Below are positions 16,435-33,591 of a DNA stretch of 61,333 nt, piece after piece. Source of the stretch: Deltaproteobacteria bacterium (lineage in GTDB: Bacteria > Desulfobacterota > Desulfarculia > Adiutricales > Adiutricaceae). The stretch covers positions 1 to 61,333 of the forward strand of contig JAISEL010000008.1 in assembly GCA_031264185.1 (NCBI GenBank). The letters are read 5' to 3'. The notes beneath the pieces were generated by a model. That model ran no database searches, was not told the DNA's origin, and saw only the letters and a list, made by a program, of their open reading frames with translations. The first letter of the stretch is position 1. The number at the start of each line of letters is the position of its first letter. Both the position numbers and the translations under genes were made by a program.

Positions 16435-16463
16435 TTGACAAGGGGAGAGATGCCCCTTATAAT
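16435..16463 (+). promoter_or_regulatory. Consensus promoter with internal palindrome
   Basis: Perfect TTGACA (16435-16440), exactly 17 bases, perfect TATAAT (16458-16463). The spacer itself is an interrupted palindrome, AGGGG-AGAGATG-CCCCT, so a repressor could cover the promoter. A second palindrome lies at 16412-16426. It drives the DUF4198 gene at 16550. Confidence 0.85.
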
Positions 16464-16501
16464 GCTATTGATTCTGAAATTCATTAACTATAAAATAGTC
16501 A

Positions 16502-16524
16502 AGGGCTGAAAGATTTTCAGCCCT
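16502..16524 (+). promoter_or_regulatory. Leader hairpin before DUF4198 gene
   Basis: A perfect 10-base stem AGGGCTGAAA / TTTCAGCCCT with a GAT loop sits between the promoter and the GGAGG ribosome site (16535-16540). No T-run follows, so it is not a plain terminator; it may stabilise the messenger or affect translation. Confidence 0.7.
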
Positions 16525-16549
16525 AAATAATTTTCGGAGGCTTGTCGTT

Positions 16550-17320
16550 ATGAAGAGAAAGCTGACATTAGTCCTGGTTGGCCTGGCGATTCTTTTTTTG
16601 GGGGGCCTGTTTTTGGGGACCGAAGCCAGGTCTCATTCGTTGTGGCTGGAGACGGAATCGGCCAAAGTCCCGGCCAACCAACCCCTCAAGATTAATGTGG
16701 GATTCAATGAGGGATTTGAGGGTGTGGATATTTTGGAAGAAGGAATCCCGAATATTTCCGCTCCAATAATTTTGGGGCCGGATGGGGAATTCACTGCCAG
16801 GTCGGCGGGGGGAAAAAATTACGAGTACGTAACGGAAAAACCTCTGCGAGCTGGCAGCTATCTGGGTTTTACCGAATATAAGCCCTTTGTCATGGGGCAT
16901 GGCGACACTCCCAAAAACAAATATTTCATGACCAATAAGTTTGTTTTTAATGTTGGCGGGTCGGTTAGCAGCGATTTGGTGACCAAGCCCCAAGCCAGAT
17001 CCGCCTTGGAAATTGTGCCCTTAACCAACCCCGCCACCCTGAAGGCCGGAGGATCCTTAAAGGTTCAAGTGCTTTTTGAGGGCAAACCTCTGCCAAAGGC
17101 CACTGTTTTGGGAGATTTTCGGGGCTTTAATCCGGCTGGAAGCTGGGGGTTGGCCAAGGCTTTCTATTGTAACACTGACAAAAATGGAGAAGTTGACTTC
17201 TTGCCAGTCAGGGATGGATTGTGGATCCTTAAAGTTAGGTACGCTGTTCCCAACCAGGATAAATCAGAGGCCGCTGAGACCGTTTATCTTAGCAATCTGA
17301 CTTTCTTTGTTGGCGGATGA
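16550..17320 (+). CDS. Secreted DUF4198 (NikM-like) protein
   Basis: Exported protein of 256 residues. A strong Sec signal peptide (residues 1-26, VLVGLAILFLGGLFL) is followed by the DUF4198 hallmark HSLWLE right after cleavage, then an all-beta body with a second Ig-like half (LKAGGSLKVQVLFEGKPLPKATV). DUF4198 proteins often lie beside TonB receptors or nickel/cobalt transport genes and are thought to help metal uptake; none has a settled mechanism. A GGAGG site lies 10 bases before the start. The gene has its own near-ideal promoter and stands before the TonB receptor region, so I place it in the uptake island. Confidence 0.85.
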   Translation: MKRKLTLVLVGLAILFLGGLFLGTEARSHSLWLETESAKVPANQPLKINVGFNEGFEGVDILEEGIPNISAPIILGPDGEFTARSAGGKNYEYVTEKPLRAGSYLGFTEYKPFVMGHGDTPKNKYFMTNKFVFNVGGSVSSDLVTKPQARSALEIVPLTNPATLKAGGSLKVQVLFEGKPLPKATVLGDFRGFNPAGSWGLAKAFYCNTDKNGEVDFLPVRDGLWILKVRYAVPNQDKSEAAETVYLSNLTFFVGG

Positions 17321-17599
17321 AAATACAAATCAGCTATTATTTTATAACCTAAATTCCCCCACAAATTAGCGTAGACAAAAATCCAGCGATACGGCAATAT
17401 CTGCAACGGCGTTGAAGTGGGCAAGAATTTCTTTCTATGGTTCGGAAGGCCGAAGAGATGTCGTGAGAAATGGCCGAATTCCTTCTTCGCGGGCAAAGGG
17501 TTGTTCACTTGTGAAGTTGAGAAGGTAAAGACCACAGAACAAGGCCGAAGCCTTTTCGATGCCCTGTAACTCAACCCAGCAGCAGCGGGCAGATCTCAC

Positions 17600-17684
17600 A
17601 GCGAGAAATCTACGGCTGGCGAGCCGGAGCGGGAGAATCGTCTGTCCGGTTCTGAGGGAAGGAGGGGGAGCCTCCTTCCCTCAT
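17600..17684 (+). other. Group II intron 3' end remnant (domains V-VI)
   Basis: At 17621-17654 the sequence GAGCCGG...CCGGTTCT closes on itself with the 34-base domain V pattern, including the AGC-GGGAGAA-TCGTC core, although the upper stem is one or two bases off. It is followed at 17653-17684 by a long hairpin TGAGGGAAGGAGG/CCTCCTTCCCTCA, in the place of domain VI. The 17330-17600 stretch upstream could hold the eroded end of the maturase frame but I cannot confirm it. No reverse transcriptase gene remains. An alternative is a plain inverted repeat. Confidence 0.5.
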
Positions 17685-17817
17685 ATTCAATTAAATTTTA
17701 AATTGAATTAGTCTTGAACAAATAATTGCAAGAAAATAATATATAATTCCGTTGTTTCTATTTAATTTCCGGCCATGAGGCTTATAAAAGAGTTTTCATT
17801 CAGTGAGGAAAAATCTA

Positions 17818-18395
17818 TGATTTTAAGTTTTTTTGGCAACGTCTGGGAAACCATGAAACAGTTGCTTCCAACGATGAGCGGAAACGGGCGTTACGTTGTT
17901 GGCAGACAAGTATCCATCGGCGGCGTTTTTGCGTTCACGTTGCCGCCTCAATGATGGTCTGGTGTTACTGTTCTGGCTCAATGCCAAGATGAGGAAATTA
18001 AAGTCAGTTCCGCCTTGGTCTCAGCAAGCCGAGTGCTACATGGATTATTTACTTTGCCAGTGACAGTTAATGCCGTCGCGGCTGGGAATTTGGCTAGAGA
18101 ACCGTATTAAATAATTCTTGGCGCGCTAAAACAAGTGCCAGGCGTTACTCTTGATGACTCAAGCGCGGCGGTTGCCGGCGCGGGCCGAGTATCAATCAGA
18201 GGCGGAAATACTGGGCGAGCATTGTTTTTAATTAATGGCATAAAAGCCGCTGATAAAGATAATTCCGCCGGAACATTAATGATCACGCCTAGTCAAGTTG
18301 AGCGGATAGAGATTGTAAAAGGACCAGCCTCGGTTTTGTATGGGCCCGAAGCCATAGATGGTCCAAAGAATGGGCAGTGCGTTAGTTTTAAATAT
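17818..18395 (+). pseudogene. TonB-dependent receptor, broken N-terminal fragment
   Basis: From ATG 17818 the frame is interrupted by stops (TGA near 17952, TAA near 18109) and then reads LGALKQVPGVTLDDSS...GAGRVSIRGGNTGRALFLINGIKA...QVERIEIVKGPASVLYGPEAIDG. That is the plug domain of a TonB-dependent receptor, parallel to residues 85-180 of the intact receptor downstream. After this the beta-barrel is missing and AT-rich DNA follows. It is a truncated paralogue, not a displaced piece of the intact gene, because the same plug block is present there. Confidence 0.82.
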
Positions 18396-18553
18396 TATAT
18401 TAATAAGTTATTTTACGTAAACCATATAAAATATTTTATAAATAAATATATATATTTTAAGTTAATAAAATCAATTTTAAATTAATTAATAGTTCCGGTG
18501 TCTTTTAATCATATTTATAGCCAGGAGGTCAACAAGCGCTACAAGGAGAAAAC

Positions 18554-20710
18554 ATGGGATTTCGGAATATTGCCGAATTTTTGGCAGCTAGGGCGAAAGT
18601 TTTCAGAAATTTGACATTAGGGGGTACTCAAACACTGCACTCTCAATCAGTTTTGGTATTATCGGCTTTGCTTTTTACGCTAGCCGGATCAAGCCAGTTG
18701 GTTATGGCTCAAGAGGCCACTGATACGGTCAATGTGCGGCCAATCATGGTCACGTCCACCAGGACTGAAAGGCCGCTGGAAGAAATACCGATGTCGGTAA
18801 GCGTTGTTGGCGAAGAGGAAATGAGACGCTACCCTCAATTGGATATCGCTAGTCAAGTTGCTGATCTTCCAGGCGTAATGATTCATGGCCAAACAGGAGT
18901 CGGAGCGGCTAGACGAGTGATGATCCGGGGAATGAGTGGGGCCAGGACCATGATTTTAGTTAATGGGGTCCGGCAGCCGCAATTGACAGGTCTTGACGGC
19001 AGCTTTTATTATGTAGACCCATCCAATATTGAGAGAATTGAGATTATCAAGGGGCCTGCCTCAGTGTTGTATGGCTCTGAGGCTATCGGAGGAGTGGTTA
19101 ATATTATAACCAAAACTGCTCAAAGCCAGGACAATGACAAGCCGGTCGGAGCTTTTCTTGGTGCTATTTTTGATGGTTCCACGGAAGGTTTTGAGCCGAA
19201 AGCGGCTATTTTTGGGCGATATAAGGGATTTTCCTATCGATTGGCGGGCACTGGCGTAGACGCCAAAGACCGCAGGATTCCTCATGACCGAGTTTGGCAT
19301 TCAGCTTTTACTAACCGCAATTATAACGGAAATGTGGCCTACGACTGGGGTGGCGGAGCCGTAAGTTTTATGTTTGACAATAATAATGCCACTCATGAAA
19401 CAATACTGGTCAAAACAGTTGATGGCATGATGTACCCTGCCAAACCTTGGGAAGTTACTACATCGACCGTGGGAGTTACGCCCAAGCAAGATAGGAGCAG
19501 CTATACTGGGCAGCTGAGCTTAAGAGATTTGAGCAGTTTTCTTAAAAAGATAACGGTGACCGGTTTTTTTCAAAAAACCGAACGCGTAAACGGCAATGAC
19601 GCCACGATCAATAGCACAACACATAACCCTGGCAGTAAAGTATCGCGAACCCACGCCGAACACGAGTCAGTAGGAGGAACCATTCAAAGTGAATGGACTT
19701 TTGGACCAAATAATTTAATTGTCGGCATTGATTACGATAAGGCGGAAATGAAATCTCAGGCCTATAGTTTTAATAGGGCTGGACTTAGAACTCCAGGAGC
19801 CAGGCAGGGTGGATTCCAAAAAACGGCCGCGATTTTCGCGCAAGATGAGTTAAAAATTGGCGATTTTACTTTTACAATGGGCTTAAGAGAGAACTGGTTT
19901 GAGCTGGAACTAACTGAATTCAGCGCCAACCCGCGGATGCTGGATAGTAGCAAGGAAACAAAGCTGGTTGGAAATTTTGGGGTGGTTTGGAATGGAATTG
20001 AAAATCTTTATTTGAGGGCTTTATATTCTCAAGGTTATAGAAATCCCAATTTGACCGCGAAATTTATGGGTTCAGGGGTATTGCTGGCTAATCCTTCTTT
20101 GAAACCAGAACAATCAGAAAATTATGAGATTGGGGCCAGGTATGACGACGGTTCGCTTAAAATCGACTTAGCCTTGTTTTATAATGATTTAACTGATGGG
20201 TTGTCAATGCAGCAAGTTGGAAATACTGGAAATTATCAATACATAAATTACAGTAAGGTAAAAAATAGCGGCCTTGAATTAGCTATTGATTATAAATTCC
20301 ACGATATTGGCCTGACTCCATATGGGTCACTAACGCTATTAAATTATCGAACGATTGATGACCGCACTGGTTTTAAGACTAACCATAACGCTCAACCGAG
20401 CCACTGGGGAAAAGTCGGTTTAAAATGGGAAGGCAAAGTGGCTGAATCAACTTTAATGTTCGCGGATCTAAACGCGGTGATGTCAGGTGGAGGCCATACA
20501 GAGAATTCAGATGGAACCGCGTCGAACTGGAGAAGACCTTATCAAACGGCTAATCTGACCTTTGGTTTTGAGGGATCAGCCGCTGATATAAAATACAATA
20601 CTTCAATCAGCTTAAGAAATATTTTCAATCAATACTATAGTCCTATTACGGCCACGCCTATGCCTGATCCAGGGTTCCATGTCGTTGTGGGAGTTGGATT
20701 TGAGTATTAA
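18554..20710 (+). CDS. TonB-dependent outer-membrane receptor
   Basis: Outer-membrane active transporter, 718 residues. An N-terminal extension leads to a hydrophobic signal segment (about 30-50, ending VMAQE). The plug domain follows: VTSTRTERPLEEIPMSVSVV, RVMIRGMSGARTMILVNGV, IERIEIIKGPASVLYGSEAIGGVVNIITK. The 22-strand barrel ends with an aromatic residue (GVGFEY), as outer-membrane proteins do. The ribosome site AAGGAG lies 7 bases upstream. The substrate is not evident; family members import ferric chelates, heme, cobalamin or nickel. TonB is encoded on the opposite strand 1.2 kb away. The N-terminal 25 residues before the signal segment are unusual. Confidence 0.93.
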   Translation: MGFRNIAEFLAARAKVFRNLTLGGTQTLHSQSVLVLSALLFTLAGSSQLVMAQEATDTVNVRPIMVTSTRTERPLEEIPMSVSVVGEEEMRRYPQLDIASQVADLPGVMIHGQTGVGAARRVMIRGMSGARTMILVNGVRQPQLTGLDGSFYYVDPSNIERIEIIKGPASVLYGSEAIGGVVNIITKTAQSQDNDKPVGAFLGAIFDGSTEGFEPKAAIFGRYKGFSYRLAGTGVDAKDRRIPHDRVWHSAFTNRNYNGNVAYDWGGGAVSFMFDNNNATHETILVKTVDGMMYPAKPWEVTTSTVGVTPKQDRSSYTGQLSLRDLSSFLKKITVTGFFQKTERVNGNDATINSTTHNPGSKVSRTHAEHESVGGTIQSEWTFGPNNLIVGIDYDKAEMKSQAYSFNRAGLRTPGARQGGFQKTAAIFAQDELKIGDFTFTMGLRENWFELELTEFSANPRMLDSSKETKLVGNFGVVWNGIENLYLRALYSQGYRNPNLTAKFMGSGVLLANPSLKPEQSENYEIGARYDDGSLKIDLALFYNDLTDGLSMQQVGNTGNYQYINYSKVKNSGLELAIDYKFHDIGLTPYGSLTLLNYRTIDDRTGFKTNHNAQPSHWGKVGLKWEGKVAESTLMFADLNAVMSGGGHTENSDGTASNWRRPYQTANLTFGFEGSAADIKYNTSISLRNIFNQYYSPITATPMPDPGFHVVVGVGFEY

Positions 20711-20734
20711 TATGTGCGCCAATAAAGGCGCCTT

Positions 20735-21080
20735 GTCAAGGCGGCGGCGGGAGTCCGCCTAAGGGTCAAGTCAGTGGACCCTGTAACTATTACCTCGGCA
20801 TTTAATTCTGAGAATGCTGTAATACCGTTTCTATTACAGATTTTGAACTAATCCTCTCAGAGTTTCGTGCCGTGGTAATAATAGTAACTGCGTCACCGTG
20901 AGGTGGAGTGGAGAGCAACAGGAGATGAATAGGCAGACCGCAGGATGACGAATCCGGTTCGGTCTGATAACGGGGAGAGCATACATAGATATTGCGAATC
21001 CAGAAATGGCAGAAATTCTCTGAAGCCGGCACTAACTGAAACTGTGACGCAAGGCGGAAATACGGCCAAAGGATGCTCTG
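20735..21080. repeat. Mosaic of IS fragments
   Basis: Contains the ~60-bp repeat shared with 2567-2632 (at 20785-20848) and a segment from about 20888 to 21010 related to 15364-15500. No intact gene. The block separates the receptor from the convergent TonB operon. Confidence 0.6.
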
Positions 21081-21084
21081 GAAG

Positions 21085-21800
21085 CCGAAGTAACTGCTGA
21101 CACCAGAGTTCAGGAAAAATATACGAATTTCCCAGCGGACTTCAGACTGCGGTTCGGTGTTTGGAATTTGTGCCTGCGTATCGCTGCATTTTATAAAATT
21201 AAATTGCGCCGTACTTATGCAAAAGACTTAAGGTATTTAAAAAAAGAGAGAAATTTCAGCAAGGGCAGAAAGGCAAAAAAATTAAAAAAAGCTGCTCTCA
21301 AAAAGCTAAGAAGTTTGTCAATAAAGTTCTTAAAAGCCTTACAAACAAGATACAGAAAACTAGTCCTGAAGTGCTTGAACATCCCGACATAATGGAATTT
21401 TTTGAGAATGCCAATAAGGCTGTCGTTCAGCAGAAAAACGACAAAAATAAAATTATACAGTATTTTGAACCTCAAATCCGCTGCATTCTAAGAGTAAGAC
21501 TGGTACCCTTTATAGGGAAAATAAAGGTCGTAATCCTTGGCGCTCCTGGTTTTGAGAAAAATCTTTACGACGGCGATACGCCGGCCCCGGCTCTTTCTCA
21601 GTTGGAAGAACTTTATGACGGCTACAGACCTAAGGCAGCAATTGTCGACCTGGGCTATCGTAATAAAGCTGCAGACGGAACCGAAATTGTTCACCCTATT
21701 GCTATGAATAACAACGAAGGATTGGACGGGAAAGAAAAAGACCGCCTAAGAGCAGGATGCCGCCGCCGAAGTTCTGGTAAGCCTATTAATAGATGTTAAT
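21085..21800 (+). pseudogene. IS5/IS1182-like transposase remnant, copy 1
   Basis: Pieces in two frames match a DDE transposase: AEVTADTRVQEKYTNF, WNLCLRIAAFYKIKL, FSKGRKAKKLKKAALK, then after a frameshift EHPDIMEFFENANKAV, QQKNDKNKI, and the catalytic region with LYDGDTPAPALSQLEELYDGYRPKAAIVDLGY. The N-terminus is missing and the end is frameshifted. A second, shorter copy lies on the minus strand at 58664-59164. Confidence 0.78.
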
Positions 21801-21944
21801 TTTCTACGCAGCAAACTTGGCGATCTCACAAATCCTATGCTGACTGCAATGGGGTTTAGCTTGAAAAAGAAAGTATACTTACGCGTTGTAACTTTGAAAA
21901 AATTATTCCGGCTGCGTCTGATACCAAGTCAACATTATTTACAT

Positions 21945-22802
21945 TTATCTTCTGGAAAATTGGACCGGCACAGTCAAATTCAGACTAGTTCGGTTTATCT
22001 CCGCTGGTATTGGGGGCAGTGGAGAAACTCTTCTGACCAAGGCCATCACCTCATCGTCCAGTGAGCTGTGCCCAGATCCTTGAACGATTCTTGGTCTAGT
22101 GACTTGGCCGTCCTGTGAGATTGTAAAATTGATTTCCACTATGCCTTTAAGATTTCTGGCTGCAGCCTCAGATGGATATTTTTTTTTGCGGTCCAGCCTT
22201 AGGCGGACTTTGGAAACATATGCGTCCAGAACTTTTGGGCTGCCTCGCCCAGTCCCTCCTCCATAACCGCCCTGGCCGTCACCAGGCCCTCCGCCAGCTC
22301 CTCCGCCAGGCCCCCCGCCAACAGCTGTTGGTCCCGTTTGTCCAACAGTTTCCGTTCTGGGCTCATTGACAGTTTTTTGGGGCTGCTGAACCTTGGGTTT
22401 CGGTTTGGGTTTTGGTTTTTCCACCAATTCCGGCGGGGGCGGCGGAGTTACTGGTATGGCCTCCTCGCTGGTACTTTCGAGAAAAGAGGGAAAAATGTCA
22501 TCAGGCACTGATACTGATACTGGCTCAGGCTCAAATAATTCTGGAGGCAATGGCCGTGATTCTGATTCGGACGCCGGTTGATCAACAGGGCCCTCTTCCG
22601 GAGTGCCCTGTCCCAATCCGCCAGGATTGCCGCCCAGAGGGTCATAGTAGGCTAGATCCATGACTGCCAATGGTTTAAATTGGTGTTCAGCATTCGCCAC
22701 TCCCAGCAGAACAATTATGGAAACCGCTCCCAGGTGGAGAAAAAAGCTGCCCGCTACTGCCCTGTAGTTATATAAATGATGTTTTTCCAGGTCGAAGTAC
22801 AT
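21945..22802 (-). CDS. tonB: Energy transducer TonB
   Basis: TonB spans from inner membrane to outer-membrane receptors and passes on proton-motive energy, 285 residues. A cytoplasmic N-terminus and one membrane helix (about 16-37, AVAGSFFLHLGAVSIIVLLG) are followed by a Pro/Glu-rich linker (PPPPPELVEKPKPKPKPK), a Gly-rich stretch, and the TonB C-terminal domain (YPSEAAARNLKGIVEINFTI...ELVSPLPPIP type). It is the last gene of a minus-strand operon behind the activase, 20 bases apart. No ExbB/ExbD genes are in the window. Confidence 0.92.
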   Translation of the reverse strand: MYFDLEKHHLYNYRAVAGSFFLHLGAVSIIVLLGVANAEHQFKPLAVMDLAYYDPLGGNPGGLGQGTPEEGPVDQPASESESRPLPPELFEPEPVSVSVPDDIFPSFLESTSEEAIPVTPPPPPELVEKPKPKPKPKVQQPQKTVNEPRTETVGQTGPTAVGGGPGGGAGGGPGDGQGGYGGGTGRGSPKVLDAYVSKVRLRLDRKKKYPSEAAARNLKGIVEINFTISQDGQVTRPRIVQGSGHSSLDDEVMALVRRVSPLPPIPAEINRTSLNLTVPVQFSRR

Positions 22803-22822
22803 GCTTTTGACCTCTCAATCAG

Positions 22823-23596
22823 TTAATTTGCGCTTAATGTCGCTCCAAAAGCCACCGTAAACTGCGGATTTGGCAAAACTTTGACTTCCATCAGCAGCTC
22901 ATCTTCCAGAGCTTCCAGCAAGCCAGGATTCTGGGACGGACCGCCATCCAGATAGATATCTCCACCTTTGGGAGTGTTTCGGCTCCCCAAAAGATGAGTG
23001 ATCCGTCTGGCTACGGAATGATGAAGGCCTTTGATGATCCTCTCCTTAGGGACGCCCTTGGCCAGCAAAGAAACGATCTCGCTTTCGGCGAAAACTACGC
23101 AAGTGCTGTTAAGCTCCAGCGGCTCATCGGCGAGCTTGCTCATTTCCCCGAACTTTTCCAAAGGCGTGTCCAGGATCCGGGCGGCCTGCTCAAAAAAGCG
23201 GCCGGTGCCAGCGGCGCACTTGTCGTTCATTTTAAAGTCCGCGATGAGGCCTTTTTCATTGAGGTTTATGACCTTGAGATCCTGTCCGCCAATATTGATG
23301 ATAGTCCGGCAGCGGCCCTCGCTTAACCAGTGGAGGCCCTGGGCGTTGGCCGAGATCTCATCAACGGTGTGTCCGGCCGAGGACATGAGTTTTTTGCCAT
23401 AACCAGTGGCGGCGATATGGTCAATGTCAACTTCCGAAAGCCCGCACTCATTAACCGCGCCCTTGACCAGTTCCATGGCCAAAGCCTCCTGGCCAGGGGC
23501 GGTGGGAACTTTTCGGCTCCAGGTGATCTCGTTGTTTTTGACTAGCACCATCTTGATGGCCGTGCTTCCCAGATCCAGTCCTATCTTGTAGCCCAT
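22823..23596 (-). CDS. 2-hydroxyacyl-CoA dehydratase activase-type ATPase
   Basis: ASKHA-fold ATPase of the BadF/BadG/BcrA/HgdC family, 257 residues. Visible are LGLDLGSTAIK-like phosphate loop, INIGGQDLKV, and the two cysteines that hold the shared [4Fe-4S] cluster of the homodimer in NDKCAAGTGRF and NSTCVVFAESEI. Such activases use ATP to fire low-potential electrons into a partner protein with a [4Fe-4S] or double-cubane cluster. The partner gene lies just upstream (50 bases). The same family also serves double-cubane reductases with no CoA substrate, which I favour here given the TonB context. Confidence 0.92.
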   Translation of the reverse strand: MGYKIGLDLGSTAIKMVLVKNNEITWSRKVPTAPGQEALAMELVKGAVNECGLSEVDIDHIAATGYGKKLMSSAGHTVDEISANAQGLHWLSEGRCRTIINIGGQDLKVINLNEKGLIADFKMNDKCAAGTGRFFEQAARILDTPLEKFGEMSKLADEPLELNSTCVVFAESEIVSLLAKGVPKERIIKGLHHSVARRITHLLGSRNTPKGGDIYLDGGPSQNPGLLEALEDELLMEVKVLPNPQFTVAFGATLSAN

Positions 23597-23645
23597 ATCC
23601 GTTCTCCGTATGTGTCAGCAATTTGGTTTGTCGTAAAATGGCCCC

Positions 23646-24899
23646 TTAATTGGCCAGGGTGTTCCGGTAGGCTTCCAGACGGGTCAGAAGAGTCTGGCTG
23701 TCTTCGGAGGTGTAATCGGTTTCCAGTTTGATGAATTTGAGGCCCATGTCTTTAAGCCGGCATTCCAGGGTAAGGCTTTCCAGATCAAATGGATGGCAGC
23801 CCTTTAAAACGTGAAAGACCACGCCCTTGTATAAATCTTTGTGGGCTGGGGCTATAATGTTGTTTATACGTCGATCGTTGTCGGAGAAGGTTGGGCACAA
23901 GCAGCCCTGGTGATAGCGCTGGGCCAGTGCCTTTAACAGCCCGTGCTCTGAGAAATCGTCAAAGTACACGGCCCCGGGAAAGATCCTCTCAGAAGAGCAA
24001 AGATCATCCATCACCACGTTTAAGCCGGCCTCTTCCAAAAGATGGAGCATCTTAAGGTTTGGAAAAAAAATAGGAGAGCCGGCCAGGAAAATATCGGGCA
24101 GAGCTTTTTCCCGTTTATTAAAGACTGGGAGAGCTTTTTTGACAGACTCGGTCCATTTCTCCGCGTCATCGAAAAAAAACGAATTGGAAATGACCATGAA
24201 CCAGATTTCCGGGACACGGCCGGTTCTCTTGAGATCAATAAGATTTGAGAAAACATGCCAGGACTTCTGATAGATATTCATGGATCTGGCCAGATCTTGA
24301 CGCCTAATCTTCTTTTTGCCAGTGATCTGGCTTAAAAAGCCCCGCAGTAAATAAACTTCTTCCAGCCATCGATCCTGACTCTCCGTCCGGTCTTTTAAAT
24401 GCGGCAACTCTAACCGATGAAAAGGCGGTTTTTCCGTAATGCCGCAGACTTCCATCATGTCCTGAATTTTGACCACCCAGTCGCAAGTGGTCGGAGTCAC
24501 CCAGGCCAGAAATTTCTGACCTTTGCTTCCTGCCAAATCCAGATGGAGTTCGCCAAGAGCCGAACGGAGCATGGGGCACATGATGGCAGGCAGTTGAGGT
24601 GCTGACAGTCTTTGAGCCACCATGGTGCCGCCAAAAATTTTAAACGGCTGGAGGCCGTAGACATGGAAAAGCTCCAAGGGTGCCTGTAAGCACATCAAGG
24701 CCACCACCGGCCTCCCGGTTCGCGCGGAAATTGTCGCCGGATCCCGGCCGCCTGCCAGCAGATCCACGAAATATTCCAGTTCCGGGCGGAAGTCCGGCCT
24801 GGACTTCAGGATTTTTATCTCCTGAGATGTTTCGTCATCGAAACGGTCCAGGATTTTCTTTTTAAGTCGTCCTTCCCGATCGTCCTGATTGTTACTCAT
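23646..24899 (-). CDS. 2-hydroxyacyl-CoA dehydratase D-like / double-cubane cluster protein
   Basis: About 417 residues, the HgdB/DCCP fold. The family start RPVVALMCLQAPLELFHVYGLQPFKIFGG is clear. Candidate cluster cysteines are in MCPMLRSALGEL, TTCDW, LCSSE, GCLCP and LKGCHPFDLESL. In dehydratases the substrate is a 2-hydroxyacyl-CoA and two different subunits are needed; here there is a single subunit gene, as in the double-cubane proteins that reduce small molecules. ATG 24899 is chosen; a TTG at 24911 overlapping the upstream stop codon is possible. It lies between the polyferredoxin and activase genes. Reaction unknown. Confidence 0.82.
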   Translation of the reverse strand: MSNNQDDREGRLKKKILDRFDDETSQEIKILKSRPDFRPELEYFVDLLAGGRDPATISARTGRPVVALMCLQAPLELFHVYGLQPFKIFGGTMVAQRLSAPQLPAIMCPMLRSALGELHLDLAGSKGQKFLAWVTPTTCDWVVKIQDMMEVCGITEKPPFHRLELPHLKDRTESQDRWLEEVYLLRGFLSQITGKKKIRRQDLARSMNIYQKSWHVFSNLIDLKRTGRVPEIWFMVISNSFFFDDAEKWTESVKKALPVFNKREKALPDIFLAGSPIFFPNLKMLHLLEEAGLNVVMDDLCSSERIFPGAVYFDDFSEHGLLKALAQRYHQGCLCPTFSDNDRRINNIIAPAHKDLYKGVVFHVLKGCHPFDLESLTLECRLKDMGLKFIKLETDYTSEDSQTLLTRLEAYRNTLAN

Positions 24900-24907
24900 A
24901 GCCTGTC

Positions 24908-25903
24908 TCAAATTCGAGCCGCGTAGCGCCGTGAGGAAGAAAAGACCTTAAAGGGCCCGAGTTTGACCAAAAGGGACTTGTCGGCGGCGCACCCTTCGAC
25001 ACATTTGAAACATCCCATGCAGTCAGCATCGTAAACATTGCTTTTTACCCGCTCCCGATAAACGGTTTCATTGTCCAGAGAACAGGTTCGGCGGCAATTG
25101 CCGCAGCCATGGCAGGCCATGGGCTCTTTGGCCAGCTTTAGCAGATAAAGCCTTTTATAGAAGTTCATTAAGGCCAGCATCGGGCAAAAGAGACAGAAAA
25201 ATCTGTCTTTAAAGAACATCCCAATAAGCATCGCTGCCGTAACAATCAGTAAGGCCAAGGAAAAGCCCAAAGCCACTCTGGTGCTGAAATCCATGGCTAT
25301 GTACTGGACATCCCCGGCGAATAACGGCATAAGAGCCTTGGCCGGGCAGATGTTACAGAAAGCTAAGATAAAATCTACCGGCAACACCCCTGACCCCGCC
25401 AAGACTGGCATGATGAATAAGTAACCCAGAAGGATATATTTGATGACCGAAAGTTTTTCTTTTTGGCGGACTAAAATTTCTGATTCCCGGATCCCCAGCT
25501 TTCGCCGCAATCTGGTGATCCAGTCTTGAACCAATCCGAAAGGACAGAGCCAGCCGCACCAGCTTTTCCCCAGAACTATGACCAGAACGGAAAAAATGCC
25601 CAGTCCAAACAGAAGGCTAAGAAAATTATCTGCAATATTCGACCATGGGTCAGCTCCCGAAAATGCCCTGTTCAAGGGCAGAAACAATACACCCAAGGCC
25701 CTTTGGAGCATCATGAGGTAGCAAAATCCAGTGCAGCTGTATACAAAAGGGCAGGAAAGGCATGGGATAGACTGCCCTAGATTGATCTGTAAAAATCCCC
25801 CATACGTGAAAACTAAAAAACCGATGTGCTGGGTAATATACCTTAATTTCGCGAGGGTCATAAAAGAAAGTCCACTAACGCTTCCTTCCTTACCTGAAGG
25901 CAT
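24908..25903 (-). CDS. NapH-like membrane polyferredoxin
   Basis: Membrane protein of about 331 residues with four to five hydrophobic segments and several iron-sulfur motifs: SCPFVYSCTGFC, CGWLCPFGLVQDW, CNICPAKALMP, CLFCPMLA, CHGCGNCRRTC and CMGCFKCVEGC. The C-terminal pair forms two [4Fe-4S] clusters. Proteins of the NapH/YccM/CcoG class move electrons between quinols and soluble acceptors. As first gene of the operon it may supply electrons to the activase and its partner. The start is not certain: ATG 25903 has no good ribosome site; an in-frame ATG at 25861 (MTLAKLRYI) fits family length as well. Confidence 0.85.
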   Translation of the reverse strand: MPSGKEGSVSGLSFMTLAKLRYITQHIGFLVFTYGGFLQINLGQSIPCLSCPFVYSCTGFCYLMMLQRALGVLFLPLNRAFSGADPWSNIADNFLSLLFGLGIFSVLVIVLGKSWCGWLCPFGLVQDWITRLRRKLGIRESEILVRQKEKLSVIKYILLGYLFIMPVLAGSGVLPVDFILAFCNICPAKALMPLFAGDVQYIAMDFSTRVALGFSLALLIVTAAMLIGMFFKDRFFCLFCPMLALMNFYKRLYLLKLAKEPMACHGCGNCRRTCSLDNETVYRERVKSNVYDADCMGCFKCVEGCAADKSLLVKLGPFKVFSSSRRYAARI

Positions 25904-25969
25904 AAAAAAGGATTAAGAGTAAAAAAATTAGTATTATTTAAGATATAAATATATGTAATTTTATTTAAT

Positions 25970-25990
25970 TAGAATTGTTAACTAATTCTA
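25970..25990. promoter_or_regulatory. Palindrome upstream of the TonB operon
   Basis: TAGAATT-GTTAACT-AATTCTA, arms of 7 bases, in the AT-rich gap 67-87 bases before the polyferredoxin start. It could be an operator; no matching regulator gene is in the window. Confidence 0.5.
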
Positions 25991-26148
25991 TATATCATTT
26001 TATGGCTATTAATTCAGCGTTTTTTGGATAATTAAATTAGAACATCCATGTACTGACAGATCAGCCTCTGGACTTCCTCTAAAGGCTGGAATAAAAACCG
26101 GTTTAAACTGGATGTTTAAAGTAACTAAAATTATTTAAGAAATTGATT

Positions 26149-27351
26149 CTATTTTTCAGCCTCTTCCTGCTGGTTAAATTTGTTGAACTTAAATTTTTTT
26201 CTTCTTTTACTAACGGCGACAGTTGCTGTCATTCCTGAGACCGCCACCAAACCCAATCCCCACGGCAGTTTGCGGTAACTCCACCGGGACAGGGAGACAT
26301 TGAGACTAAAGGTCATAACCTCGTTTGAACCATTAACCGGTAACACGGCCACGGACAGTTTGGCTGCACTTGAGCCGCCCATGGGGCCGCTAACCACCAC
26401 CAAGGAAGGGTCATCGACCGGGCTTAAAGTATATTTTTTATTATTTGGGTTAAAAGTTATGGGCGCGGGCTCAATGCCGCCTGGTTTGGAATCAACCAGG
26501 TACCCCCCAGCTGGAGCTGCTTGTTGGCCTAAATTGGCCACGGAAAAATCTACTGTCTGACCAGTTTGTAACCCCCGGAAGGGCATGCCGTTGTAGCTGC
26601 CTTCGGGAAAGACCAATTTTGGCCAATCGGTTGGCATGGGGGATTCCGGGACCGGAGCGAGACCTTTGGTATCATTATCAGTCAAGAAGTGAAGAAAGTT
26701 GTATTGGCTGAAGACAGTTGTTCCGTCTAGACTGTACCGGGAAAAAACCTCTGTGGTGGAAAAAGTTGTCGCCTTAATATCCGCCCGCCAAACCCCTTTG
26801 TCCATGGTCACCTCTGCTTTGTGGGTGGTCTTTCCCAAAGGAACTCCTCCATGCCGAGCCAAAGTTCTGGCCGTGACCACATAATAGACTTCCGGGGCCT
26901 CAGTCGGTTGGGCTGCCCCCTGAACGTGAAGATAAATTTTATGGACGGGGCTTCGGTTCATGGCACGCGAATGACTGACAGTAACCGCCGCACTGGCTGG
27001 ATTCTTGTCGTCCTTTTTGGATTCCGAGGCTGCGGCGGACTCAGCGGAGCCGTGAGGGGCAGACACTGGCCTGGTCATTCCCGCTTGGGCTCCCTCGCTG
27101 AGCCGGCCGTCGGACACGGAGTGCCCGGCGGCCGCAGAACCCTGGTGCCCTGGGCGCCCATTGGCGGAGGCAGCCTCCTCTGAGGGCTTGGGGAAGGCGC
27201 TTTCAGCGGCCATCCCGTGGCTGCCCGTCCTGGCCGCTGTAGCCGGAGCCCACCAGCCGTAAGGTTTCAGATGAGTCGGATCGTCCGCCAAAAGCGGGCT
27301 GGTTCCCATTAAAAAAGCGACAAAAATAATAATTAAAGATAAATGTTTCAT
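26149..27351 (-). CDS. Secreted membrane-anchored protein of the uptake island
   Basis: 400 residues, not a family I recognise. It begins with a Sec signal peptide (LSLIIIFVAFLMGTSPLLAD), then a low-complexity Ala/Ser/Glu-rich segment (about 38-120), a beta-rich body with VHKIYLHVQGAAQ and SYNGMPFRGLQTGQTVDFSV, and close to the end a membrane helix (LPWGLGLVAVSGMTATVAV) with a Lys-rich tail SKRRKKFKF. So it should be periplasmic and anchored in the inner membrane. Its own promoter carries a Fur-box-like palindrome at the start site. Position beside the polyferredoxin-TonB operon suggests a role in substrate handling. Confidence 0.8.
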   Translation of the reverse strand: MKHLSLIIIFVAFLMGTSPLLADDPTHLKPYGWWAPATAARTGSHGMAAESAFPKPSEEAASANGRPGHQGSAAAGHSVSDGRLSEGAQAGMTRPVSAPHGSAESAAASESKKDDKNPASAAVTVSHSRAMNRSPVHKIYLHVQGAAQPTEAPEVYYVVTARTLARHGGVPLGKTTHKAEVTMDKGVWRADIKATTFSTTEVFSRYSLDGTTVFSQYNFLHFLTDNDTKGLAPVPESPMPTDWPKLVFPEGSYNGMPFRGLQTGQTVDFSVANLGQQAAPAGGYLVDSKPGGIEPAPITFNPNNKKYTLSPVDDPSLVVVSGPMGGSSAAKLSVAVLPVNGSNEVMTFSLNVSLSRWSYRKLPWGLGLVAVSGMTATVAVSKRRKKFKFNKFNQQEEAEK

Positions 27352-27500
27352 TTTATCAACCTAATACATATGAAATACCAGTAAATATATAGAAAAAGAC
27401 ACTAATAAACAATAAAAGCATTAATTCGTGCGGCGATAATTTGTGGGCTTAACCTTACAAAAAGCAGCCTGGGACTTAAGGAAATTGTCAAATAATTGAA

Positions 27501-27519
27501 ATTGAAAATCAGTTTCAAT
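27501..27519 (-). promoter_or_regulatory. Fur-box-like operator
   Basis: ATTGAAAATCAGTTTCAAT has perfect 7-base arms (ATTGAAA/TTTCAAT). Its inner part fits the 7-1-7 Fur pattern TGATAAT-N-ATTATCA at 12 of 14 or nearly so, with T/A changes only in the middle of each arm plus one G. It begins 3 bases downstream of the -10 box, where a repressor would block RNA polymerase. Confidence 0.6.
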
Positions 27520-27522
27520 CTC

Positions 27523-27550
27523 AGTATAGCATTTTTTAGATACGTGTCAA
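27523..27550 (-). promoter_or_regulatory. Promoter of the anchored secreted protein
   Basis: Minus strand: perfect TTGACA (complement of 27545-27550), 16-base spacer, TATACT (complement of 27523-27528). It lies about 170 bases before the start codon at 27351. Confidence 0.75.
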
Positions 27551-30427: not shown

Positions 30428-31501
30428 ATGACATCTGCTCCCCAGACCTCAATCCGCTCCGTAACCCTGGCGGAAAATCCCAAAATCCTGATCATCAAAA
30501 TGAGTTCTCTGGGCGATGTCATACACGCCCTGCCGTCCCTTTACGCCTTAAGGACCCTCTATCCCCGGGGGATTATCCACTGGGTTGTGGAAGAAGCCCA
30601 GGCCCCGCTTTTACCCGGGCCGCCCTATATTGACAGGATCTATTGTTTTCCCAAAAAAGACCTGAAAACTCTGTCCCCCTGTAAAATTTGGCGAACTTTA
30701 AAAAAATTCCGCTCTGAACTGGCGGTCAATAAGTATGATCTGGTCATCGATCTCCAGGGTCTGGCCAAAAGCGCCTTAGTGGCCTTGTTAAGCGGCGGGA
30801 AAGTCAAACTGGGCTACTGGGAGATGAGGGAAGGCAGCTTTTTGATCTCCAGAGGCATTAAGGGGGAACATGCGCTGTCTCACGTAATTGAGCGGTATCT
30901 GGACGTTATCCGTTTTTTGGGCCCCGTGCCCGGTGAAATTGTATACCCCCTGCCCGACTATACTCCCCAAACAGGGCGCCTGGAAAAAAAACTGAAAGAC
31001 CTGGGCTGCCGAAGGGGCCGGCTGATTGTGTTTTTTCCCGGCGCCAGCTGGCCCACCAAACTCTGGCCTGCCGGTCACTATGCCAGGTTAGCCCAAAAGC
31101 TGACCGAAGACGGCTGGGAAATCATCTTAGGCGGAGGGCCAGGGGAAAGAGATTTGGCCGAGACAATCAAAAGCCTGAGCCCGTCCGTCCGGTACTGTGA
31201 TTTAGTCGGTCAGACGGATTTAAGGGACCTGATGGCCCTGGCCGGTCTGGCTGAAGCGGCGGTAGGCTCCGACTCCGGCCCTCTCCATCTGGCCACGGCC
31301 GTCGGCGTACCGACCGTAACTTTGTTCGGACCCAACAGCAGCCAAAGAACCGGCACCTACGGCCCCAAAGTCACCAACCTCATGTCCCCGGCTCCCTGTG
31401 CGCCGTGCTTCAAAAAGACCTGCCCCGGAGAATTTATCTGCCTGAAAGAAATCAGCCCCCAGGAGGTATATGAGGCTGTCAGAAAGGCTATTTCAAAATA
31501 G
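30428..31501 (+). CDS. waaC: LPS heptosyltransferase I
   Basis: Glycosyltransferase family 9, 357 residues; adds the first L-glycero-D-manno-heptose to Kdo of lipid A at the inner membrane. The family start ILIIKMSSLGDVIHALPSL is preceded by about 20 extra residues. Also seen are DLVIDLQGLAKSA, the core FFPGASWPTKLWPAGHYARLA, and the ADP-heptose site VGSDSGPLHLATAVGVPTVTLFGP. The final CAPCFKKTCP is typical. No clear ribosome site stands before ATG 30428. It overlaps the convergent Sel1 gene by 14 bases. Confidence 0.93.
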   Translation: MTSAPQTSIRSVTLAENPKILIIKMSSLGDVIHALPSLYALRTLYPRGIIHWVVEEAQAPLLPGPPYIDRIYCFPKKDLKTLSPCKIWRTLKKFRSELAVNKYDLVIDLQGLAKSALVALLSGGKVKLGYWEMREGSFLISRGIKGEHALSHVIERYLDVIRFLGPVPGEIVYPLPDYTPQTGRLEKKLKDLGCRRGRLIVFFPGASWPTKLWPAGHYARLAQKLTEDGWEIILGGGPGERDLAETIKSLSPSVRYCDLVGQTDLRDLMALAGLAEAAVGSDSGPLHLATAVGVPTVTLFGPNSSQRTGTYGPKVTNLMSPAPCAPCFKKTCPGEFICLKEISPQEVYEAVRKAISK

Positions 31502-33524
31502 GCAGTTCCAGAATGTCACTTTCGGAGGAAGTTCCGGCAGGGGAAGCCTCCCGGTCTTTTGGACTCATCCGGGGAGCCGGTTCCGGGAGGCTCGGGGGAA
31601 CCGGCGCAAGTTCCGGAACAGAAGAAGCGCTCCGGGCCGGGGCGGCCGAAGGTGCGGACCGGACTTCGGGCTCTTCCCCTGTCAGTTCAGCCGGAATTGA
31701 GGCCTTCCGGGATTCTTCAGCCGGGGCAGCCGGAGGCCGGACCGCAGGTGCATTTGCGGTTCCTCCGGTCTCCAAAGCCGTCTGACGGCCGGGCGGCTCT
31801 TCCGGGGCCGGCTGACCGGCCCGGGGCGGACCAGGAGGATCATTTTCAGCCGGCTCGGCCAAAGGCAGCGCCGTCAGGATTTCCCCTTCAGCCGGAGAAA
31901 CCGGCGGACGGACAGACAGAGCTGTCTCTCCGGAGGCGGGCTCTTCGGTGTTCGGTTGTCCGGCCGAAGTCCGGCCTAATGGTTCGGCCTCAGACCTCCC
32001 GGCCGGCAGCGGCTCCGCACCGGCCCGGATTGTTTCTTCAGCCGGGGGCGCCGGAGGTTTCACGGCCTGAGAGGCTGCCGCCCGGGCCGGTGCGGCCGGA
32101 GATGACTTTGGGGAGGCAGCCGACGGGTTCTCTTCAGGCGGCTGCGGTTCAAGGGACGGAGTTGGCAGAACAGTGCCTTCAATATCGGGCTCTTCGGTGA
32201 GTCTTAAGCTCAGAGACAGCTTTTCCCGGAGATTTTCCAGTCTCTCCCGGGCCTCCGGCAGCCCTTGGCGGGCGGCTTTCAGGTACCAGGCAGCGGCCTG
32301 GGAGTAATCAAGAGGGACATCCCCCAGCCCGCCGGCCTCATAGTAAGCTCCCAAAAAGAACTGGGCCTGGGGAAAGCCTTCTTCGGCGGCTTTCCTGAAC
32401 CATTCGGCCGCCAGAATATAATTCTGAGGCAGACCCTGACCGTTGGCGTAGGCTAAACCAAGATTAAACCGGGCCTCAACATTGCCGGCCGCGGCGGCTT
32501 TAAAAAACCATTCGGCGGCTTGCCGGTCATCCTGCTCCACTGCCCGGCCGGTGGAGTAGTAGACGCCTAAATTATTCTGAGCCGGCGCATCGCCTTTGTC
32601 GGCCGCCTGCCGGAACCAGTAGGCCGCCTTTTCAAAATCCGCCCTGATAAAATAGCCGGATTCGCAGTAAATGCCGAGCCCCCTTTGAGCCGGGGGGTAA
32701 CCGGCGTTGGCCGCCCTGTCCATCCAGAAATGAGCCAAACGGGGATCTTCTTCAACGCCCTGCCCTTTTTCATACAATAAAGCCAGACTGTACTGGGCTT
32801 CGGGACTTTCCAAGCCGGCCGCCTTAGCCCAGTAAGCCGCGCCGGCGGCCGTATCTTTTTCCACGCCCCGGCCTTCCGTATAAAGGGAGCCCAAAAGGTA
32901 AAGCGCCTCTCTTTCGCCTCCGGCCCCGGCCAGCTCAAAACTGCGGCGGGCCAGATCCAAATCCTGATCCAGTCCCAGACCGTCCAGATAAAATTTGCCC
33001 AACAGCAGCACGGCCCCGGAAACATTCTGCCGGGCGGCTTTCTCCAGCCAGAAAGCAGCTTTCTTAAAATCCGGCCTGCTCCGGCAGGCCAGAAGCTGAG
33101 CCAGCCGGTACTGGCCCTGAGGGTGTCCGGACAAAGCGGCCAGACTGTACCAGTGGAAGGCTAAAAGGGGGCTGCCGGGGGCCTCCGGCCCGGATTCGAA
33201 AATTCTCCCCAGTTCATATCTTGAGTCCGGGTGGCCTAAAACGGCCGCCCTTTGAAACCAGTAGGCCGCATCCCGCGCATCCTGCCTGTCAGAAGAATTC
33301 AAAGCTCTCCGGCCCAGATGCCATAAGGCCTCAGGCTGTCTTTTCAAAGCCGCTTTCCGGTAATACTCCAAAGCTTTCAGCTCATTATTCCGCTGACTGC
33401 ACTCCAGAGCTTTCTGCAGGCAGTAAGGTCCGTCAGCCCGGTTTAAACAATAAAAGACAAAGCCCAGAAGCCCCAGGCCGAAGCAAAGAAAGGTCCCTGT
33501 ATAGATTAAAACGGTTCTGTTCAT
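31488..33524 (-). CDS. Membrane-anchored Sel1-repeat protein
   Basis: About 678 residues. One N-terminal membrane helix (TVLIYTGTFLCFGLGLLGFVFYC) is followed by ten or more Sel1-like repeats of 36 residues (forms such as A-x-x-W-F-x-x-AA-x-x-G-x-x-x-A-x-x-x-LG-x-x-Y). The last third (about 465-678) is disordered, rich in Pro, Ala and Glu. Sel1 repeats make protein-binding solenoids, often in the periplasm. ATG 33524 gives a proper anchor; a TTG at 33551 would extend it by nine residues. It follows the waaF gene after about 70 bases on the same strand. Confidence 0.88.
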   Translation of the reverse strand: MNRTVLIYTGTFLCFGLGLLGFVFYCLNRADGPYCLQKALECSQRNNELKALEYYRKAALKRQPEALWHLGRRALNSSDRQDARDAAYWFQRAAVLGHPDSRYELGRIFESGPEAPGSPLLAFHWYSLAALSGHPQGQYRLAQLLACRSRPDFKKAAFWLEKAARQNVSGAVLLLGKFYLDGLGLDQDLDLARRSFELAGAGGEREALYLLGSLYTEGRGVEKDTAAGAAYWAKAAGLESPEAQYSLALLYEKGQGVEEDPRLAHFWMDRAANAGYPPAQRGLGIYCESGYFIRADFEKAAYWFRQAADKGDAPAQNNLGVYYSTGRAVEQDDRQAAEWFFKAAAAGNVEARFNLGLAYANGQGLPQNYILAAEWFRKAAEEGFPQAQFFLGAYYEAGGLGDVPLDYSQAAAWYLKAARQGLPEARERLENLREKLSLSLRLTEEPDIEGTVLPTPSLEPQPPEENPSAASPKSSPAAPARAAASQAVKPPAPPAEETIRAGAEPLPAGRSEAEPLGRTSAGQPNTEEPASGETALSVRPPVSPAEGEILTALPLAEPAENDPPGPPRAGQPAPEEPPGRQTALETGGTANAPAVRPPAAPAEESRKASIPAELTGEEPEVRSAPSAAPARSASSVPELAPVPPSLPEPAPRMSPKDREASPAGTSSESDILELPILK

Positions 33525-33591
33525 AACCAGTACTGAAATGTCCGCGTTCAAACAAGCCCGGCCGGAAAGACCCGCGCCCGCTTAAAATAAA

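Follow-up and report, generated by a model that had tools for sequence, protein, structure and literature searches.

A conserved gene block ties a double-cubane-type reductase to TonB-dependent uptake in a termite-gut Adiutricaceae genome

Double-cubane proteins (DCCP) have been called archetypes of the benzoyl-CoA reductase/dehydratase family and what they do biologically is described as unknown (PMC11971306). For NapH-type proteins a transfer of electrons through the membrane to partners in the periplasm has been proposed (PMC8238504), DUF4198 proteins have been reported as secreted, nickel-binding and encoded near TonB receptors and NikR regulators (PMC12537917), and in Pseudomonas the FpvG reductase system frees the iron of pyoverdine in the periplasm and PvdRT-OpmQ recycles the ligand (PMC6954188). 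We describe here an island in which genes of the first three kinds stand together, at positions 16,435 to 27,550 of a 61,333-nucleotide stretch of DNA (contig JAISEL010000008.1, termed the window) from a termite-gut Adiutricaceae genome whose near relatives are named Candidatus Adiutrix. The isolates come from termites. Profile searches of the window proteins recovered every gene named in a preliminary description of the island (DUF4198 protein, TonB receptor, TonB, activase, HgdB/DCCP-like subunit, NapH-like protein and anchored protein):

16550..17320, plus strand: secreted DUF4198 protein of 256 amino acids (PF10670, 97.9 bits, cut-off 34)
18554..20710, plus strand: TonB-dependent receptor with plug and barrel (nearest to the haem-receptor model TIGR01785, below cut-off)
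21945..22802, minus strand: TonB (PF03544, TonB_C; TIGR01352)
22823..23596, minus strand: activase ATPase of the BadF/HgdC type (TIGR00241, 225 bits, above the cut-off of 125; Protein Data Bank entries 4eht, 1hux and 7yyl, the last being DCCP-R)
23646..24911, minus strand: single-subunit DCCP-like reductase (PF06050, 202 bits; 421 codons from a TTG start, 417 from the first ATG)
24908..25903, minus strand: NapH-like membrane FeS protein (PF12801, Fer4)
26149..27351, minus strand: signal-peptide-bearing, C-terminally membrane-anchored DUF4198-like protein of 400 amino acids (model Z 10.9 to Zcp, 9mhn)

On the minus strand the five genes, in the order anchored protein, NapH, reductase, activase and TonB, apparently form a single operon as judged from their spacing: the gap before NapH measures 245 bases, or 287 with the start used in relatives, and the remaining gaps are of 50 bases or less. 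By sequence, the reductase is closest to DCCP (E 4e-31). A structure prediction of the 417-residue protein agreed with the resemblance proposed in the preliminary description, the AlphaFold (AF2) model (predicted local distance difference test score, pLDDT, 89.8) matching DCCP 6eno best (Z 45.1, root mean square deviation 2.2, 390 residues), ahead of BzdN (Z 40.2) and 2-hydroxyisocaproyl-CoA dehydratase (Z 39.7). Six cysteines (C74, C112, C143, C305, C339 and C372) have counterparts in DCCP (7yyl) and do not vary among 26 sequences; presumably they serve the two cubanes of the single chain. Both cluster cysteines of the activase were likewise confirmed, in NDKCAAGTGR and STCVVFAES. The window reductase reaches 186 bits with NF040772, the model for double-cubane-cluster anaerobic reductases, against a cut-off of 350, and thus looks like a protein of DCCP-like predicted fold that lies outside this model.

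With DCCP and DCCP-R of Carboxydothermus hydrogenoformans (6eno, 7yyl) the island pair shares the single-subunit HGD-D fold, the six aligned cysteines and the paired activase, whereas the island reductase is only about 25% identical and stands with NapH and an anchored periplasmic protein in a TonB uptake context. The HGD-D and activase systems acting on CoA esters share the architecture but have two different HGD-D subunits, in contrast to the single subunit of the island and its lack of CoA genes.

To place the island among its relatives, we compared it with 40 related stretches, drawn from its genus, family and class, and with 80 loci of named genomes. The block of anchored protein, NapH, reductase and activase recurs in dozens of genomes from about ten phyla, very often accompanied by a TonB receptor, TonB or ExbB and sometimes by DUF4198, and the same gene order in Adiutricaceae relatives and across these phyla excludes a chance assembly. 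Among 86 sequences the reductase cluster was present in 81, NapH in 58, the activase in 57, the anchored protein in 48 and the receptor in 38, all of these counts being lower bounds owing to contig ends and automatic reading frames; two further clusters of open reading frames, c6 and c10, consist mostly of frames antisense to core genes and do not represent genes. The observation set beforehand as refuting the link was CoA genes beside the pair in relatives, with a TonB neighbourhood found only here. Instead, CoA-transferase and acyl-CoA genes were absent from the recurrent neighbour clusters that were annotated, and the TonB context recurs in relatives. In a Desulfobulbus-named termite-gut block, L088 (L213), the reductase gene is in two pieces, split by an in-frame TGA.

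A scan of 395 genomes of the phylum returned six matches of at least 267 bits outside the class (G042, G049, G090, G228, G271 and G329). All six adjoin an anchored-type protein and NapH, which in G271 is masked by an antisense frame, and five of them have a receptor or TonB alongside. Matches below 220 bits showed only reductase and activase where the pair was recognisable, and canonical DCCP-like loci outside the family are without NapH and receptor. Since the high-scoring matches carry the block and the low-scoring ones only the pair, the block reductases form, as judged from these scores, a distinct branch separate from ordinary DCCP-like pairs. What had been taken for a single unusual island is one copy of a widespread family that has corrinoid-linked and iron-linked forms. 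In the papers searched we met no account of this assembly, of a double-cubane reductase with TonB uptake, of a cobalamin riboswitch with a hydroxyglutaryl-CoA dehydratase, or of a dehydratase activase with TonB-dependent siderophore uptake, and we regard the assembly as known parts in a new arrangement, with a role that had not been suspected.

The corrinoid-linked form is present in the same genome, where a sister block on contig C166 is preceded at about 80 bases by a cobalamin riboswitch (RF00174, 84.8 bits). Sister blocks of Synergistota, Spirochaetota, Planctomycetota, Acidobacteriota, Pseudomonadota (Accumulibacter-type) and other Thermodesulfobacteriota also carry such riboswitches; a sequence-only hidden Markov model run on all loci agreed and added weaker matches, including one at a Lentisphaerota locus. 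Counting loci with at least 2.5 kb of known upstream sequence, related rows among which are not independent, the riboswitch was found at 26 of 41 loci outside the window clade and at 0 of 16 inside it (Fisher p 9e-6). In a reductase tree of 83 rows it is scattered through the family and absent from the window clade; the window gave no RF00174 match even at a lax threshold, and no Rfam family reached its gathering score within the island.

The receptors of sister loci are often BtuB-like (up to 417 bits), and their neighbours include CobN, ExbB and CbiZ fused to a BtuF-like periplasmic binding domain. Because most of these CbiZ and CobN proteins start with apparent signal peptides, corrinoid processing would take place in the periplasm. 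At L095, L097, L121, L136 and L154, CobN with DUF2162, MotA/ExbB-like proteins and exported CbiZ-BtuF fusions stand beside the reductase block, apparently for periplasmic corrinoid processing. Sister loci thus have the cobalamin riboswitch, BtuB-like receptor and CbiZ-BtuF fusion in common with BtuB/BtuF corrinoid uptake with CbiZ remodelling, whereas the window copy has neither riboswitch nor CbiZ; CobN too is missing from the island, and both enzymes are absent from the window-type loci seen. To our knowledge, the B12 uptake systems described so far include no ATP-driven reductase. Judged from riboswitches and neighbours, the wider role of the family is corrinoid uptake. One 4.4 Mb genome, G000, holds 17 cobalamin riboswitches, five of them on contig C97, and corrinoid handling seems unusually important there.

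In the window a different signal was found. A generic Fur box (TGAWAATNATTWTCA, one mismatch allowed) matched 19 palindromic genome sites, the reversed control 6, and did not define a clear regulon, for which reason an operator matrix was built only from the feoAB promoters of seven genomes. Its two best sites among 122,626 in the window lie at the two island promoters:

16462..16482, plus strand: putative Fur-type operator resembling those of feoAB, ATGCTATTGATTCTGAAATTC, right behind the -10 box in the DUF4198 promoter (second-best window site)
27498..27518, minus strand: putative Fur-type operator resembling those of feoAB, TTGAAACTGATTTTCAATTTC, right behind the -10 box in the promoter of the reductase operon (best window site)

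Their position behind the -10 box is that seen in feoAB. Both remained on top when the window's own genome was left out of the matrix and ranked first and third when the most divergent genome was removed as well; among 1000 column-permuted matrices a single one placed its two best sites at both island promoters. The genome holds two Fur-family genes, and a feo-like site recurs at the reductase operon of the congeners L076 and L077. The window copy is probably under iron (Fur) control through these predicted operators, and its clade appears to have been recruited for iron, the corrinoid form being the wider one. Another motif, AAACTGATTTTCARTTT, was rejected as a genome-wide regulon. The connection first proposed between TonB uptake and the activase/double-cubane pair is therefore strongly supported by gene order kept across phyla, sister riboswitches, feo-like operators and the lack of any recurrent CoA gene.

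The two remaining core proteins have predicted periplasmic parts. The NapH-like protein scores 71 bits with TIGR02163 (NapH/MauN, cut-off 213) and can be called NapH-like only. In addition to the common cluster motifs it carries PCxxCPF...CxxxC behind membrane segment 1 and FCNIC behind segment 3, and the six extra cysteines (48/51/57/61/183/186) are invariant in an alignment of 18 out of 18 sequences. The loops bearing them contain 2 and 1 Lys/Arg, compared with 9 and 18 in the inner segments, and by the positive-inside rule are predicted to lie on the periplasmic side. The island protein has in common with the NapH, NosR, PceC and flavinylated systems a PF12801 membrane FeS protein and a putative electron transfer towards the periplasm (PMC8238504); it differs in its six extra invariant cysteines, in having an ATP-driven reductase as cytosolic partner and in that no FMN-binding domain was found. 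At five Desulfobacteraceae-like loci (L147, L148, L151, L215 and L218) the gene next after the activase encodes a DsbD/CcdA-type membrane protein (PF13386), a further hint of electron transfer to the periplasm.

No Pfam family matched the window's anchored protein. Its model (pLDDT 69 overall, above 90 in the core) has a sole good match to a solved fold, the metal-binding Zcp (9mhn), at Z 10.9, the next unrelated row standing at 5.9, and equivalents in other lineages give weak but repeated DUF4198 (PF10670) scores. Described at first simply as an anchored secreted protein, it is present as claimed but is a DUF4198-like member of the core block. The soluble DUF4198 protein encoded at the other end of the island has a His at its likely mature N terminus (...EARS-HSLWLE).

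All of this evidence is covered most simply if an imported complex is reduced and thereby gives up its metal; on balance we think it probable that the block serves the uptake of metal nutrients and brings an ATP-driven reductase of its own, the metal being reduced and released in the periplasm. A metal complex would enter across the outer membrane through the TonB receptor, energised by the island's TonB. In the cytosol, ATP hydrolysis by the activase would load the double cubane of the DCCP-like protein with electrons of low potential, and the NapH-like protein would move these through the membrane to periplasmic clusters or thiols. There the anchored DUF4198-like protein would hold the complex while its metal is reduced and the ligand loosened, and the soluble DUF4198 protein may collect the freed metal. 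The substrate would probably be a ferric chelate or haem for the window version and corrinoids for the version with the cobalamin riboswitch. The import half of the import-and-reduce module first proposed is well supported. The data show the gene content and its conservation, the regulatory sequences of both kinds, the predicted fold of the reductase and the conserved cysteines; the direction of the electrons, the substrates and the role of DUF4198 are what we infer, and a TonB-imported chelate or cofactor as the reduced substrate fits the data. Outward flow is favoured chiefly because of the NapH cysteines predicted to be periplasmic and the role ascribed to NapH-type proteins. A bolder form of this reading, which we put forward tentatively and at somewhat less than even chances, is a transmembrane ATP-driven electron pump in which the nitrogenase-like activase and the double cubane would export electrons below about -600 mV via NapH to the periplasm, stripping metal from corrinoids, haems and ferric chelates beyond the reach of ordinary periplasmic reductases.

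Three window-type loci (L084, L085 and L131) carry a MacB-type transporter with HlyD directly after TonB, and L084 an outer-membrane efflux gene as well. We take FpvG not to be an ATP-driven FeS reductase, and a sequence relation with the island is not expected. Common to the island and to FpvGHJKCDEF with PvdRT-OpmQ are nevertheless a TonB receptor, an inner-membrane reductase and periplasmic binding proteins, and the MacB-type efflux of these relatives parallels PvdRT-OpmQ of the pyoverdine system (PMC6954188). By this analogy the MacB, HlyD and efflux genes would fit a pyoverdine-like release scheme.

The alternative that survives best, although we consider it unlikely, keeps the reduction in the cytosol: a corrinoid or haem imported to the cytoplasm would be reduced by the DCCP-like protein, for instance from Co(II) to Co(I) before adenosylation, with NapH anchoring the complex or feeding it electrons and the anchored DUF4198-like protein serving as a binding or docking subunit. 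In its favour, every activase/HgdB-type pair so far characterised is cytosolic, the core block does combine reductase, activase and NapH, and the base-on Co(II)/Co(I) couple, near -600 mV, is within ATP-driven reach. Nevertheless, CbiZ and CobN of sister loci look exported, the core includes an exported anchored protein, the extra invariant NapH cysteines are predicted on the outer side and quinol would be a poor donor for an activase. Improbable in our estimation is a role in metal removal or ligand remodelling, in which the electrons would help exported CbiZ/CobN to strip the lower ligand or the metal, DUF4198 would take the metal and the window version would act likewise on an iron tetrapyrrole; CbiZ-BtuF fusions, CobN, DUF2162 and ExbB/MotA do stand beside sister blocks and DUF4198 is metal-binding (PMC12537917), but the island and the window-type loci seen are without CbiZ and CobN. 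Very improbable, too, is a metabolic function in which the DCCP-like enzyme would stand in for a cofactor-dependent one to spare B12 or iron and would share no more than its regulation with the uptake genes. B12-independent isozymes such as MetE are indeed among the targets of cobalamin riboswitches, but this reading would leave unexplained the fixed core of NapH and anchored protein, the operon shared with receptors and the change to feo-like operators seen in the genus of the window. A chance neighbourhood of a receptor and an ordinary CoA-type activase pair, such as exists in this genome on contig C122 in contrast to the island, can be set aside given a block conserved in dozens of genomes, the absence of CoA genes among its recurrent neighbours and the canonical DCCP-like loci outside the family that have neither NapH nor receptor.

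Several points weigh against periplasmic reduction and release. Elsewhere, soluble activase pairs have CoA esters as their substrates and work within the cytosol, the NapH sequence does not settle which way its electrons run, and the case is built on sequence and predicted structure. The window receptor, at 219.8 bits with the haem-receptor model TIGR01785 (cut-off 316.85) and 97.4 bits with the BtuB model TIGR01779 (cut-off 599.7), points to no particular substrate, and it has no His between its FRAP-like and NPNL-like boxes; for the low score and the missing His a haem-receptor identity was dropped. The feo-like operator is clear only in the window, L076 and L077 and was not found in L078, L080, L081 and L085; as the other genera of the clade mostly lack it, the indication of iron control extends no further than the genus of the window. 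Finally, DUF4198 is reported to bind nickel, not iron (PMC12537917). In view of this nickel binding F430 or a nickel chelate may be the substrate, but the feo-like operators point to iron.

The remaining island features concern its receptor part:

18135..18485, plus strand: remnant of a second TonB receptor, a plug fragment (PF07715)
21371..21799, plus strand: remnant of an IS5-type transposase (NF033578, 41.9 bits, below cut-off)

The broken receptor lies between the DUF4198 gene and the intact receptor, the IS5-type remnant parts the two transcription units, and from both the receptor part of the island is seen to be rearranged. ExbB and ExbD genes were not found within the island and are presumably supplied from elsewhere in the genome. 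A group II intron match at 17619-17684, obtained at a lax threshold (27.2 of 40 bits), was not believed. Further along the window, positions 31488-33551 encode a 687-amino-acid protein resembling a Sel1-type repeat protein that is anchored at its N terminus and has a long tail rich in Pro and Ala, flanked by heptosyltransferase-like genes.

Operon structure and two independent regulatory signals thus link a large branch of the double-cubane proteins to the uptake of metals and corrinoids, and the role of these proteins becomes directly testable. If the direction of electron flow proposed here is true, cytosolic ATP would be spent to deliver extremely reducing electrons outside the inner membrane, which would explain how strict anaerobes release metal from very stable complexes.

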